From Planctomycetota bacterium (GTDB taxonomy: Bacteria; Planctomycetota; JAFGQW01), in the NCBI GenBank assembly GCA_016935485.1, contig JAFGQW010000147.1, positions 1 through 36,347 on the forward strand: DNA of 36,347 nt, in the 5' to 3' direction. Positions 4,514 to 10,542 of this stretch are shown one piece after another. Position numbers and translations under genes: made by a program. How positions within the stretch are numbered: position 1 is the stretch's first letter; every line of letters begins with the position of its first letter. The notes below the pieces were generated by a model. It was given only the letters and a program-made list of their open reading frames with translations. It did not search any database and was not told the origin of the DNA.

Positions 4514-5005
4514 TCACCCCCCCGCCCGCGGCAGCAGTCCGCGCCGCCACCGCTCCGGACGCAGCAGTACGCGGTCGACGAGGAAGATGAAAACCGGCGC
4601 GGCCAGCGCCGTCGGCGCGGCGACGGCCAGCGCCCCCGCCAGCAGCGCGAGCCGGCCGGAGTGCGGATAGGCGACCATCAGCGGCACGACGGCCCCCGCC
4701 TCGAGAATCGCCCCGAGCACGAAGGTGAGCCACACCTGGTTGAGCGGCCGCGCGGCGTAGAACCCGCGCCGGAGCCCCACCACGACCCCCACGCCGCCCG
4801 CGGCCAGCACGAGGTGAAACCAGGTGGGATCCAGAGAGGCGCTGCCGCGCGCGAACGCCACGAGCAGCACCGGCAGCACGAGCCGCCGGAGCTCGATCCG
4901 CGTGGCCGCGAATCCAAGCAGCAGCACGAACGGATCGAGGCAGGCCGGCAGATCGGGCGCGAACACCGCCGCGACCACGGTGAGCAGGAGGAACATCGCG
5001 ATCAT
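4514..5005 (-). CDS. mreD: Rod shape-determining protein MreD-like membrane protein
   Basis: 163 aa, multiple hydrophobic helices, position between mreC and mrdA, 4-nt overlap with mreC. Confidence 0.8.
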   Translation of the reverse strand: MIAMFLLLTVVAAVFAPDLPACLDPFVLLLGFAATRIELRRLVLPVLLVAFARGSASLDPTWFHLVLAAGGVGVVVGLRRGFYAARPLNQVWLTFVLGAILEAGAVVPLMVAYPHSGRLALLAGALAVAAPTALAAPVFIFLVDRVLLRPERWRRGLLPRAGG

Positions 5006-6273
5006 CGCGCGTCATCCAGCGGCCAGGCGAGATCGCGCGGCGGGCGCGCAAACCGCCCGACCTGGAGTCCAGCGCCGCGCGCAGGCCGCGCGGGCCGCTC
5101 CAGGACCACGAAACCGCCCGCCGACGAGCTTACCACTTCCCCGAGCACAAGACCAACCCCGCCCGCCCCCCGGTCGGGTCCGACCACCAGGAGATCTCCG
5201 GCCTCGGGCGCGACCCGGGCCTCGAGGCAGCCGCCGTGAACCCGGGTGCCGTCGCGCCGGCCGCCGCGGAACACGGCGCCGCCGGGACTCTCCAGGCGAC
5301 CGGGCTCCGCCGGCCGGAGGATCAGGACGTGGCAGTAGAACCCCGGGTCCTCGACGAGGCGCACGCGGGCGACCCGGCCCGCCGCCGTGTGGACCCAGCC
5401 CTCGAGGTACGCCCCGCTGGCCACGGGAGCGTCCGGCGGCACCGGCCCGCCGCCCTCGCACACGATCAGCACCGAGCCCCGGAGCGGGCTGGCGTCCCAG
5501 CTCCGGACCACACGGGCCGGCCGCCAGTCCCCGGACCCCTCGCCCCGAGGGCCGAACCGGTGGATCCTCTCCCCCCGCTGGAGGCGGAGCCCGAGCACAC
5601 GCCGCGGCTCGAAGAAGGGCTCCACGCACGAGCCGCCGCCCTCGGCGCCGCCGGCCTTGAGCCGGCCGACCGGCAGGCCGGCGGGGACCTCGCGCACAAC
5701 GTCGCGATCGATCGCCGTGGTGACGACCGCGCCGCGCTCGATCTCCGCGCGGAGCGCGCTCCGGTTCTCGGGATCTTCGATCTCGAGTCCGCCGCCGCGC
5801 CGCGATCCGGTGAGCACCATCCGCCCGCTCCCGGCGCAGCCGAGCCACCACGCCTCGGCGTCGACCACGGTCCGGATGCGCGCGAAACCGGCGGCCACCG
5901 CGTCCACCTCGCCGGCGAGGCAGATCGGACCGCCCTGCGGCTCGCGGAAGCCGGCCACGTCACCGAGGGCGACGCCGTCGCGCCGGCCGCGGTCCACTAC
6001 CACGTGCGCGCGGTCGCCCGCCAGGCGGACGGCCACGACCCGCGCGCACCCGTCCGGCCCGGCCCGGTTCCACGCACGCTCGAGGAACGCCGCGACCGCC
6101 GGCGGCGGCGCCGGGAGCGCCGCGTCCCGCCGGGCGGCCTCCGCGCAGGGGTGGCGCAGCGCCGCCACCGCGGCCTGCACGGCCACCTCGAGCGCATCGC
6201 GCACCGGCGTGCGCAGCACGAGGAACACAACCGCCGCGGCGTAGAGGAGCCCCGCCAGCGGCCACCGCCGCAT
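5002..6273 (-). CDS. mreC: Rod shape-determining protein MreC-like, with two apparent MreC beta-domain modules
   Basis: N-terminal TM, then ARVVAVRLAGDRAHVVVDRGRRDGVALGD... and a second MreC-like stretch ARVVRSWDASPLRGSVLIVCEGGG...GWVHTAAGRVARVRLVEDPGF. Directly downstream of mreB. Confidence 0.82.
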   Translation of the reverse strand: MRRWPLAGLLYAAAVVFLVLRTPVRDALEVAVQAAVAALRHPCAEAARRDAALPAPPPAVAAFLERAWNRAGPDGCARVVAVRLAGDRAHVVVDRGRRDGVALGDVAGFREPQGGPICLAGEVDAVAAGFARIRTVVDAEAWWLGCAGSGRMVLTGSRRGGGLEIEDPENRSALRAEIERGAVVTTAIDRDVVREVPAGLPVGRLKAGGAEGGGSCVEPFFEPRRVLGLRLQRGERIHRFGPRGEGSGDWRPARVVRSWDASPLRGSVLIVCEGGGPVPPDAPVASGAYLEGWVHTAAGRVARVRLVEDPGFYCHVLILRPAEPGRLESPGGAVFRGGRRDGTRVHGGCLEARVAPEAGDLLVVGPDRGAGGVGLVLGEVVSSSAGGFVVLERPARPARGAGLQVGRFARPPRDLAWPLDDAR

Positions 6274-6275
6274 GG

Positions 6276-7328
6276 CTACTCGGACTCGGCGGTCTCAAGG
6301 ATCTCGTGGAGCAGATCCAGCTGATCCAGGATCTCGTTGATTCCGCGGGCCACGGCGGTGCGAGGATCCGCCGCCACGGAGACCGGCAGCTTGATCTCCT
6401 CGGCGATGATCTCGTCGATCCCCCTCAGCAGCACCCCGCCGCCGGTGAGCGTGATCCCGGTGTCGACGAGATCGGCGGAAATCTCCGGCGGTGTCTGCTC
6501 GAGCGTCGTGCGGATCGCCTGGATGATGGCGCGCACCGGAGGCTGCAGGGCCTCCCGGATCTCGGTCGAGGTGATGTTGGTCCGACGGGGCAGGTGGTCC
6601 TTGAGATCGCGCCCGCGGATCTCCATCTCGTACTCCTGCGCGATCGGGTAGGCGCTGCCGATCTCGATCTTGATCCGCTCCGCGGTCTGCTCGCCGATCA
6701 GGAGGTTGTACTTCTTGCGCACGAACTGGATGATCGCCTGGTCCATCTCGTCGCCGGCCACGCGGATGCTCGTCTTCTGCACCAGCGACGCCAGGCTCAG
6801 CACCGCCACCTCGGTGGTGCCGCCGCCCACGTCCACGATGAGGTGGCCGCGCGGCTCGTTGATGGGCAGGTTCACGCCCAGGCCGGCCGCGAGCGGCTCC
6901 TTGATCAGGAACACCCGGCGGGCGCCCGCGCGCTCCGCGCAGTTGATCACCGCGCGCTTCTCGACCGCCGTGATGCCCGAGGGGATCGACATGAGCACGC
7001 GCGGCCGGATCCACGAGCCCCCGTGGGCCTTGCGCAGGAAGTAGCGGATCATCGCCTCGGTGATCTCGAAGTCGGCGATGACCCCGTTCTTCATGGGCCG
7101 GATGGCCATGATGCTGCCGGGCGCCTTGCCCAGCATCTTCTTGGCGGACTCCCCCACGGCGGTCCCGTTCATGAGGACCCGGTTGGTGCCGCGCTTGACG
7201 GCGACCACGGAGGGCTCGTCCAGCACGATCCCCGCCCCGCGCACCGCGACGAGCGTGCTGGCGGTGCCGAGATCCATGCCGACGTCCGCGGAGAACTTGC
7301 CCAGCAGCCAGTCGATCGGCGACCTCAT
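6276..7328 (-). CDS. mreB: Rod shape-determining protein MreB
   Basis: MRSPIDWLLGKFSADVGMDLGTASTLVAVRGAGIVLDEPSVVAV...HLIVDVGGGTTEVAVLSL...TLTGGGVLLRGID: canonical actin-like MreB. Start trimmed to ATG at 7328. Confidence 0.97.
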   Translation of the reverse strand: MRSPIDWLLGKFSADVGMDLGTASTLVAVRGAGIVLDEPSVVAVKRGTNRVLMNGTAVGESAKKMLGKAPGSIMAIRPMKNGVIADFEITEAMIRYFLRKAHGGSWIRPRVLMSIPSGITAVEKRAVINCAERAGARRVFLIKEPLAAGLGVNLPINEPRGHLIVDVGGGTTEVAVLSLASLVQKTSIRVAGDEMDQAIIQFVRKKYNLLIGEQTAERIKIEIGSAYPIAQEYEMEIRGRDLKDHLPRRTNITSTEIREALQPPVRAIIQAIRTTLEQTPPEISADLVDTGITLTGGGVLLRGIDEIIAEEIKLPVSVAADPRTAVARGINEILDQLDLLHEILETAESE

Positions 7329-7459: not shown

Positions 7460-7489
7460 AAGAAACGGGCCCGGACGAGGCCGGGCCCG
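7460..7489 (-). terminator. Rho-independent-like terminator after the 56-aa protein gene
   Basis: Perfect 9-bp stem CGGGCCCGG-(6 nt)-CCGGGCCCG at 7466-7489, followed on the minus strand by TTTCTT (7465-7460). Confidence 0.72.
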
Positions 7490-7520
7490 CGCGGCATTCA
7501 ACAAGGGGTCGAGCGTCGCG

Positions 7521-7691
7521 TCAACCGAGAAGCCCGGCCTGATAGTCGTTGCTCAGCTTGATGAGGGTGATGATGATCGCCACCAGCAAGCCCACCGTGG
7601 TGATGATCACGAGGCCGGTCGCCAGCACGTCCTCGGACGGCGACTCTTCCTCGATCACCTCGTCGAGATCCATCAGTTCTTCAGCGGCCAT
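7521..7691 (-). CDS. Small acidic single-TM protein (56 aa), unknown function
   Basis: MAAEELMDLDEVIEEESPSEDVLATGLVIITTVGLLVAIIITLIKLSNDYQAGLLG; acidic N-terminus then one hydrophobic helix; lies between the upstream coiled-coil gene and a hairpin terminator. Confidence 0.68.
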   Translation of the reverse strand: MAAEELMDLDEVIEEESPSEDVLATGLVIITTVGLLVAIIITLIKLSNDYQAGLLG

Positions 7692-7749
7692 GTATCGTTC
7701 ACTCCGTCTCCCGGGGAATCGCCCCCCGTGGGTTCTCGGAAACAGGACC

Positions 7750-8598
7750 TCACAGGCGCGTCTGGGCCGTGTCGCCCACGGCGATCTCCCTGCCCGGCGC
7801 GAGCACGATGAATCTCGCGGCGCAGCTCTTCGGGTAGACGTTGTCCACCTGGACATCGCCGACGTACAAGCCGCGGCGGCTGACATGGAAGCGCATGCCC
7901 TTGGTGACCTTGTCGTCGCTGCCCACCGAAAGCGTCACGAACTTGTATTCCGGGTTGACCGTCTGCACCACTGCTTCGATGGGCGGCGCCTGGATCACGC
8001 CCTCGAAGTTGAAGCCCCCGTCAATGGCGATCTTGACCTTGTTCTGCTCGTGGGCCAGTTCACTCCGCACCTCGGTCAGATCGCGCTCGTGCTGCGCCAC
8101 CTGCTCCTGGAGGTCCGCGATCATCTGGTCCTTGCGCCGCCCGTCGTCCTCGGCCGTCTCCTTGGTCGCCACCGCACTCCGCGCGTTCTCCTCGGCCGTC
8201 GTCATGCGCCGCTCGTAGAGCTCGCGATCCCGCTGGGCCTGGGTGAGCGCGGCAGTCAGCGTCTTCATCTGGTCCTTGAGCTCGGCGACGCTGTTGCCGA
8301 GCTTCTCGTTGGAACGTTTCTCCTCGGTGAGCTGCTGCGACAGGGCGAGGTTGGTCGACCCCATCTGGTCCTTCTCATCCACGGCCGCCTTCCGGGCGGT
8401 TTCCGACTCGCCGAGCTGGGCCCGCAGGCTGTTGTTGGCCGCCTGCATGACAGCGATTTCTTCCGCCTTCTGCTTGTCGAGCGCCTCGTACTTCCCCTTC
8501 CAGTTGTCGGCCTTGCCGAGCAACGTCGCGGCGGTCGCCACAAAGACCACCGAAAGCACGAGGTTGAGCACGATGAAGACCTTCAGAATGTTGCTCAT
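7750..8598 (-). CDS. Membrane-anchored coiled-coil protein with C-terminal beta-rich domain, unknown function
   Basis: MSNILKVFIVLNLVLSVVFVATAATLLG (TM anchor), about 150 aa of E/K/Q/A-rich coiled coil, then IEAVVQTVNPEYKFVTLSVGSDDKVTKGMRFHVSRRGLYVGDVQVDNVYPKSCAARF. ATG at 8598 downstream of a consensus promoter. Confidence 0.85.
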   Translation of the reverse strand: MSNILKVFIVLNLVLSVVFVATAATLLGKADNWKGKYEALDKQKAEEIAVMQAANNSLRAQLGESETARKAAVDEKDQMGSTNLALSQQLTEEKRSNEKLGNSVAELKDQMKTLTAALTQAQRDRELYERRMTTAEENARSAVATKETAEDDGRRKDQMIADLQEQVAQHERDLTEVRSELAHEQNKVKIAIDGGFNFEGVIQAPPIEAVVQTVNPEYKFVTLSVGSDDKVTKGMRFHVSRRGLYVGDVQVDNVYPKSCAARFIVLAPGREIAVGDTAQTRL

Positions 8599-8688
8599 CA
8601 GTTTCCCTTCTTCTTCTATGCGGACTGCGGCAGGCCAGGGGTCGGCATGCACGGACACGGGTTCCGTGACAAGCGCACGTTGGGCCCG

Positions 8689-8716
8689 ATTATAGCCTCG
8701 GCCGGGGTGCTGTCAA
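8689..8716 (-). promoter_or_regulatory. Consensus housekeeping-sigma promoter (TTGACA-16-TATAAT)
   Basis: Minus strand reads TTGACAGCACCCCGGCCGAGGCTATAATCGGG, with an A/T-rich UP-element-like tract just upstream (8717-8770). Confidence 0.8.
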
Positions 8717-8756
8717 CAAATAATTGAGTCCGAGTCGAACCGGATAAAGTATTTTT

Positions 8757-10352
8757 TTAAAAGAACTTACGCCGTTTACTTCGCAGTCCTGCCGCAGCGC
8801 TGGCGAGGACGGCGGCCAGCCCGAGCACCGCACACGAGACTGCGAATGCGTCGCCTGCGACCGTGTACACCGCCGGCCGCGTGCGCACCGGCACCCGGCA
8901 GCGGAGCACGCCGCCCACGCCCCGGTCGCGCCCGGCCCGATCCCGCACCCGGGCCACCACGTCACCGCGCGCGTCGATCAGGCAGCTGATCCCGCTGTTG
9001 GTCGCCCGGACCAGGCTCACCCGGTTCTCCACCGCGCGAAACCGGGCGATCCCGAGCAGCTGATCGAACTCCGCCGACTCCCCGAACCACGCCTCGTTCG
9101 TCAGGTTCACCAGGAAGCGCGCCCCGCCGGCCACCATGCGGCACGCGGTGCGCGCGTGGATCACGTCGAAGCACACCAACGCACCGAAGGACCAGCTCTC
9201 CTCGGGGCCGAAACGGAACACCACGGGCTCGCGGCCGGCGATCATCTTCATGTCGAAGCCAGCGTAGCGCTCGAGAATGTCGCCCACGAACCGGAGCCCC
9301 AGCGGAATGTACTCGGCCCATGGAATCGGGTGGAGCTTGTCGTAACGCCCGCTCTCCCGGCCGTCGCGGGTGAACAGGATCGCGCTGTTGTGGAAGGGTG
9401 GATACGGCGCGCCCCGGCGCAGCGGCTCGGTGTAGTAAAGCGTGCCGAGCAGCAGCGCCGTGCGATAGCGGGCGCGGGCCAGCGTGGCGAACGCCAGGCG
9501 GTTGGCGCCATACGGCGGGTCATCGCCCGGGCCCAGCGGATAGAGCGGCGCCGGATTCATGGTCTCCGCCCACACGATGAGGTCGGGCCGCGGGTCGGCG
9601 CCGGCCGCCTCGAGCGACAGCCGGTCGTTGCGCTCGAAGACCTCACGGCCCTCCACGGCGACGGCGCTGTCCTTCAAGGCCTGCGGGATGTTGGGCTGCA
9701 CGGCGGCGACCCAGGGGCCGTCCTCCCGAGCGGCGCCGCCGAACTGGCGACCGCGCATCTCGCCGTAGACGAGTGTCGCGATAGCGAGCGCCGCCCAGAG
9801 TCCGAGCGGCGCGAGGAGCCCGCGCCGTGGGCGCTCGCGGGCGTCCCACGCCGCGGCGATCACCGCGGCAGAAAGCGCCGTCAGGAAGGTGACGCCATGC
9901 ACGCCGGTGACATCGGCGATCTGGATGAGGCGGGTGCGCTCGACCTGGCTGTAGCCGACCATCAGCCAGGGAATCCCGGTGAAGAGCCGGCCGATCAGAA
10001 GGTCCCCCCCGACCCACGCGGCGGCCACCAGCACCGGCCCGAACCGGTTCCGAAGCACACAGACCGCCCGGAGCACCGGCCCAAGCGCCGCGTAGAAGAG
10101 CCCGAAGTAGAGCGCGACCGCGATCCAGCCGACCGCCGTGGGCACGGTGAGCCAGGACATCGCGAGGGCCGCCGAGACGAGCCCGAACGCTCCACCGGCC
10201 GCCGCCGCGCCGCCCGGCGTGCTCCGCCCGAGCGCCCGGAAAAGCGGTGCCAGCCCCACCCAGCCGAGCGGCCACAGGGCAGCGGGCGGAAAGGCGAGCG
10301 CGACCAGGAAGCCCGACAGGGCTCCCGACAGGAGGGCAAGCAGCACGGACAC
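8757..10352 (-). CDS. lnt: Apolipoprotein N-acyltransferase
   Basis: N-terminal multi-TM then nitrilase domain with WAETMNP, YDKLHPIPWAEYIPLG, LVCFDVIH (E-K-C) and LVNLTNEAWFGES. GTG start at 10352 chosen because MSVLLALLSGALSGFLVALAFPP is a typical Lnt N-terminus. Confidence 0.93.
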   Translation of the reverse strand: MSVLLALLSGALSGFLVALAFPPAALWPLGWVGLAPLFRALGRSTPGGAAAAGGAFGLVSAALAMSWLTVPTAVGWIAVALYFGLFYAALGPVLRAVCVLRNRFGPVLVAAAWVGGDLLIGRLFTGIPWLMVGYSQVERTRLIQIADVTGVHGVTFLTALSAAVIAAAWDARERPRRGLLAPLGLWAALAIATLVYGEMRGRQFGGAAREDGPWVAAVQPNIPQALKDSAVAVEGREVFERNDRLSLEAAGADPRPDLIVWAETMNPAPLYPLGPGDDPPYGANRLAFATLARARYRTALLLGTLYYTEPLRRGAPYPPFHNSAILFTRDGRESGRYDKLHPIPWAEYIPLGLRFVGDILERYAGFDMKMIAGREPVVFRFGPEESWSFGALVCFDVIHARTACRMVAGGARFLVNLTNEAWFGESAEFDQLLGIARFRAVENRVSLVRATNSGISCLIDARGDVVARVRDRAGRDRGVGGVLRCRVPVRTRPAVYTVAGDAFAVSCAVLGLAAVLASAAAGLRSKRRKFF

Positions 10353-10542
10353 GGTCGAGGACTCCCGACGGGTTCGCCGCCCGCCGGGGCCGGCGAACGC
10401 GCGCGGTGGCCGGAATCCGAGAATGCGCCTATCCGTATGCGCTCCGGCCCCGTACCATGCCGGCGGGCCGAGTGGGCCGGGACCTCGGGTCCGCGCTCCG
10501 CGGAAACCGGCCCTCCGGGCCCCGGAGGCGAGAACGACCGGA

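Follow-up and report, generated by a model that had tools for sequence, protein, structure and literature searches.

A conserved gene pair beside mreB in Planctomycetota encodes a coiled-coil membrane protein of near-constant length, a candidate strut of the cell envelope

Introduction

How is the envelope of Planctomycetes shaped and divided? The gene ftsZ has been lost in all Planctomycetes (PMC10632474), and many lineages have lost MreB or can dispense with it (PMC10632474; PMC6952346; PMC8567305). Deletion of mreB in Planctopirus limnophila has no phenotype (PMC6952346). A result cited in PMC8567305 is that the presence of MreB-complex genes correlates strongly with that of wall-synthesis genes across the phylum.

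The stretch of planctomycete DNA analysed here (36,347 nucleotides, denoted the window) carries, between lnt and mreB, genes encoding a long coiled-coil membrane protein (denoted CC) and a short protein with a single transmembrane (TM) segment (denoted TMS). A preliminary description read them as a two-gene envelope unit with a strong promoter of its own, possibly a partner of the elongation machinery. What does this pair do next to the mre genes, and is it bound to MreB? Among open-licence papers, we found none that describes or names it.

Results

The genes of the locus lie on the minus strand in the order lnt, promoter, CC, TMS, stem-loop, mreB, mreC, mreD and a PBP2-like gene. The lnt gene, encoding apolipoprotein N-acyltransferase, occupies 8757..10460, its start being approximate (Pfam LNT_N, 8.3e-30; CN_hydrolase, 1.4e-19). 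CC, an ORF of 282 amino acids, runs from the ATG at 8598 to the stop at 7750 (7750..8598), followed by the 56-amino acid TMS (7521..7691), mreB (6276..7328; Pfam MreB_Mbl, 7.8e-133) and a true mreC of 423 amino acids (5002..6273; Pfam MreC, 35.4 bits, cut-off 28). The two ORFs and their products are thus as first described. Neither CC nor TMS has a Pfam or NCBIfam family. Matches to SMC, myosin, crescentin and similar proteins were set aside as generic coiled-coil noise, as was a TMS match to SecE (E 0.023).

Upstream of CC is a sigma-70-type promoter, TTGACA-16-TATAAT (8689..8716, minus strand), which agrees with the consensus at 12 of 12 positions. Perfect TTGACA/TATAAT pairs with spacers of 15-19 occur only twice in the whole 4.9 Mb genome (405 contigs), once before CC; the other copy (L002:95-122, G000:C185) is on a different contig, upstream of a possible secreted protein of unassigned function. 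The AT-rich tract noted upstream of the CC promoter is real and overlaps in part the end of lnt, whose stop is near 8757. Judged from the promoter, transcription would start at about 8682, giving a predicted untranslated leader of ~84 nt (8599..8682, minus strand) in which inspection of the sequence revealed a purine-rich ribosome site before the CC ATG.

Near-consensus promoters are enriched at this position in the relatives as well. Among 80 loci from the phylum, 22 promoters with at least 11 of 12 matching positions lie in the 230-bp stretches that precede CC, compared with 21 in the remaining 2.28 Mb, both strands included, a ~130-fold enrichment per base; perfect promoters number 6 upstream of CC and 3 elsewhere. 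By these counts the pattern is beyond chance, and it suggests high expression of CC, as expected for a structural protein.

Downstream of TMS, a terminator-like stem-loop (7465..7490, minus strand; TTCTTATACC) forms 10 pairs, of which 9 are G-C; its RNA folding z is -2.5. The stem announced in the preliminary description therefore holds, whereas its tail is only weakly T-rich. Of 50 testable loci, 15 have a terminator-like hairpin with a T tail after TMS, compared with none of 50 control windows inside mreB. In the other 35 testable loci no such hairpin was found 3' of TMS, so in some lineages transcription probably reads through from the CC-TMS unit into mreB. Taken with the promoter enrichment, the hairpins of the relatives argue for the strong, self-contained unit initially proposed.

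A search with the single CC sequence gave matches in 50 of 59 relatives; most of these cover the full length, and identities are 25-35%. In a profile search of 294 genomes, most families had full-length matches. For the latter search a match was counted as CC only if it was long and extended into the C-terminal barrel; the raw result, a profile match in all 294 genomes, was discarded, as weak matches may be any coiled-coil protein. All CC loci come from one phylum, Planctomycetota, and kinship among them inflates the counts given here. The phylum was deduced from the planctomycete-type PSD1 family, which occurs in 15 of 20 genomes of the group, at up to 81 copies per genome, and in none of 14 control genomes.

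Directly downstream of CC, 74 of the 80 loci have a short single-TM ORF. The TMS seeds had been picked by position and hydrophobicity, hence profiles built from half of the loci were searched against all ORFs in the remaining loci. The best match was the ORF adjoining CC in 71 of 74 loci (E<0.01 in 63), and by this held-out test TMS is a real gene family. A pattern recurs in the family, clearest in the lineages that lack MreB: the TM helix opens with a Y..LL motif and is followed by an aromatic residue. Conservation of the small ORF and of the two-gene unit, which the preliminary description had left to be checked, thus extends across the phylum as far as comparison of genomes can tell.

CC consists of a TM helix (residues ~7-26), a coiled coil (~30-193) and a predicted six-stranded beta barrel (~205-282). 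An alignment of 35 family members has a conserved start, MS..AK.FVV.NLVLS, followed by the TM helix, a coil devoid of conserved residues, and a C-terminal domain that is again conserved (LSVG..D.V..G..F.I.RG..Y.G.V.V..V.PD...A). At ~25% identity, the distance from TM helix to barrel is nevertheless 219.9 +/- 4.0 residues in 76 loci, compared with ORFs read as MreC at the CC loci, which range from ~230 to >430 residues. The hydrophobic periodicity of the coil is exactly 3.50 (power 13.2, mean 2.1), glycine and proline together make up less than 3%, and proline is nearly absent. AlphaFold2, run from the family alignment, predicted one continuous helix over residues 3-193 and the six-stranded barrel (mean pLDDT 89.8), with helix and barrel mostly above pLDDT 90. 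The isolated C-terminal domain reached pLDDT 92.6 and pTM 0.78; the pTM of the full model is 0.39, leaving the angle between helix and barrel undefined. Constant length, exact heptad and unbroken predicted helix are what a rigid rod of fixed length would display. At 0.15 nm per residue, ~160 helical residues measure ~23-24 nm, which is of the order of the width of the periplasm. Because the length is constant, the heptad exact and the predicted rod ~24 nm long, the reading we prefer is that of a spacer or tether.

Several loci carry additional genes of this type. A second gene for a TM plus coiled-coil protein lies directly upstream of CC in five of them (L073:7267-7947, L075:5995-6669, L076:5786-6523, L113:5040-5774 and L108:5133-5873); these proteins resemble the N-terminal part of CC and have no barrel match, which suggests a duplicated, barrel-less partner. 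In L127 (G012:C151, 1999-4111) three tandem genes encode proteins with a C-terminal barrel and a shorter coil, and further tandem duplicates of CC are found in L068, L085, L116 and L122.

The C-terminus of CC had been said to resemble loosely the beta-modules of MreC. At the level of fold the likeness is plausible: Foldseek with the full CC model gave MreC (2j5u, E 1.1e-3) as the best match. With the isolated barrel domain the best matches are to FlgT (8z5n, 3w1e). The MreC matches (2j5u, 6zm0 and 7eft) have E values of ~1e-3 to 4e-2, and the small fold is a common one, present also in F1-ATPase. At the level of sequence the likeness did not stand. Comparison with profiles of the true MreC proteins encoded at the CC loci gave 87% for the whole CC profile and 19% for the domain alone, with a stretch of 54 columns common to both families. 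The domain of the window CC scores 12.8 bits against the MreC core (PF04085), below the cut-off of 28, and 2 of 27 CC-family members match this core at E<=1. In comparison, 18 of the 27 match FlgT_C (PF16538) at E<=1, two relatives among them exceeding the curated 27-bit cut-off with 29.0 and 33.0 bits; the window CC itself does not match FlgT_C at E<=1. Against profiles of PDB proteins, TsaP was the sole match of the barrel domain, and a weak one (E 0.046). The sequence of the barrel is thus nearer to that of Pfam FlgT_C than to that of MreC, and going by these models a fair statement is that CC carries an MreC/FlgT-like barrel and is not an MreC. FlgT and MreC are periplasmic structural proteins; together with the N-terminal TM helix, this would place the C-terminus of CC in the periplasm.

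The affinity to FlgT_C, the weak TsaP match and the fold match to the flagellar LPHT ring could mean that CC belongs to an envelope-spanning machine, such as the basal structure of a pilus or flagellum, with its barrel in a periplasmic ring. The neighbours of CC, however, are lnt and the mre genes and not genes of motility or pili, and CC has neither the N-terminal domain of FlgT nor a LysM domain; we consider such a role highly improbable. Against the tether reading, Pfam searches of the full proteins detected no known anchor domain of the OmpA or LysM type in CC.

The pair usually adjoins mre genes in the relatives, as the preliminary description had asked to be verified: in 52 of the 80 loci CC is followed by mreB at a distance of at most 2.5 kb, in 33 it is preceded by lnt at a distance of at most 1 kb, and the order lnt-CC-TMS-mreB-mreC-mreD-PBP2 recurs in many families. 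This recurrent order speaks for CC being a second MreC-like partner in the elongasome, with the barrel binding MreC or PBP2 and TMS binding MreD or RodA. The MreC-like fold and the TM-coil-barrel architecture would agree with such a partnership, as would the little coiled coil in the window's own MreC; CC is, however, also present at loci whose MreC does have a coiled coil.

The distribution of the pair across genomes weighs against that partnership. In nine genomes of 96-99% completeness (G133, G241, G269, G273, G277, G285, G297, G309 and G313) MreB was not found at E<=1e-20. All nine keep CC, with a match running from the TM helix to the barrel, and in all nine TMS follows it (L074, L107-L113 and L119). 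In five other genomes (G025, G048, G138, G183 and G203) mreB is found at a separate site, and CC and TMS are still together. Conversely, three families (f42, f68 and f74) have MreB but yielded no CC match at E<=1e-10. In two of these, f42 and f74, lnt and mreB are immediate neighbours (L094, L095, L096, L123 and L126); as far as gene content can tell, these are MreB-containing lineages in which the pair is absent or has been lost. CC without MreB and MreB without CC were thus both found, so an obligate elongasome component is unsupported, and the original suggestion of a partner of the elongation machinery is weakened. For such a partner, the copies in MreB-less genomes would have to be relics or a derived use, and we regard it as rather unlikely. 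The pair without MreB, the pair apart from mreB and MreB without the pair together indicate that CC-TMS is a unit of its own. By gene content it occurs in most of the phylum and persists where mreB has disappeared.

Persistence of the pair where MreB is lost, in a phylum in which ftsZ is lost throughout (PMC10632474), might also point to a complex for division or membrane remodelling, similar to FtsL/FtsB/DivIC. The pairing of a bitopic TM-plus-coil protein with a small membrane protein fits this idea, and the only match in this direction is a weak one to FtsL_2 (E 0.5). In a small neighbourhood check of the MreB-less genomes, no division genes adjoined the pair, and in this small sample the neighbouring genes shared no functional context. 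The coils of FtsL and FtsB are, moreover, far shorter and carry no barrel. A division role therefore seems improbable.

Discussion

Tentatively, and short of calling it probable, we propose that CC and TMS form a strut or tether between the inner membrane and the wall or outer membrane. CC would sit in the inner membrane by its one N-terminal TM helix, N-terminus in; its predicted coil of ~160 residues would span the periplasm as a stiff rod whose length is fixed, at ~23-24 nm, holding up the predicted FlgT/MreC-type barrel, which may dock on peptidoglycan or on an outer-membrane partner. CC would also oligomerise. TMS would be made together with CC from the strong promoter, with a terminator-like hairpin after it in some lineages, and may pack against the membrane helix of CC and so assemble, anchor or regulate the rod. 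Together, the two proteins would set the spacing of the inner membrane relative to the wall or outer membrane. We propose that service to the growing envelope accounts for the place of the unit in the lnt-mre locus, and that the unit can do without MreB.

Several points temper the tether reading. A constant length is also expected of a coil whose length is fixed by other partners, and a TM protein might in principle have its long coil in the cytoplasm. The strong link to mreB in the genomes (52 of 80 loci) still allows an elongation-specific role in most lineages, and the Foldseek E value of only ~1e-3 concerns a common small-barrel fold. A wider proposal, that CC-TMS represents a novel core module of the planctomycete envelope, a rod with a small membrane partner that sets the width of the periplasm and replaces part of the wall mechanics guided by MreB or FtsZ in lineages that have lost those systems, we hold to be doubtful.

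The pair has a strong promoter, is conserved in most of the phylum and persists without MreB, and for these reasons it offers a direct genetic handle on how the planctomycete envelope is shaped and divided. If the coil is indeed a ruler, its length may tell what sets the width of the periplasm in bacteria with heavily invaginated membranes.

Among known systems, MreC shares with CC the TM helix, the coiled coil, the beta barrel and the locus. It differs in its two-barrel core, where AlphaFold2 predicts a single six-stranded barrel for CC, and CC has a much longer coil of constant length and no Pfam match to MreC over the cut-off; a true mreC coexists with CC, downstream of mreB, whereas CC lies upstream. 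The MreC of the window is itself unusual, apparently without the usual coiled coil and seemingly with repeated barrel segments, and similarly long MreC proteins are encoded in related loci (L034, L035, L037 and L039). The closest sequence family of the CC barrel is the C-terminal domain of FlgT (PF16538), with TsaP. In Pfam searches of the full proteins CC has neither the N-terminal nor the middle domain of FlgT, and its context is lnt/mre and not flagellar; TsaP differs by its LysM domain. Unlike both, CC has a TM helix and a long coiled coil. FtsL, FtsB and DivIC resemble CC in their short N-terminus, TM helix and coiled coil; their coils are several times shorter than that of CC, there is no barrel and the gene context is different. 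The envelope tethers of diderms, for example Lpp, are alike in the role that we propose for CC and in having a long alpha-helical spacer of fixed length. Lpp, however, is anchored by lipid in the outer membrane, and CC would be anchored by its TM helix in the inner membrane.
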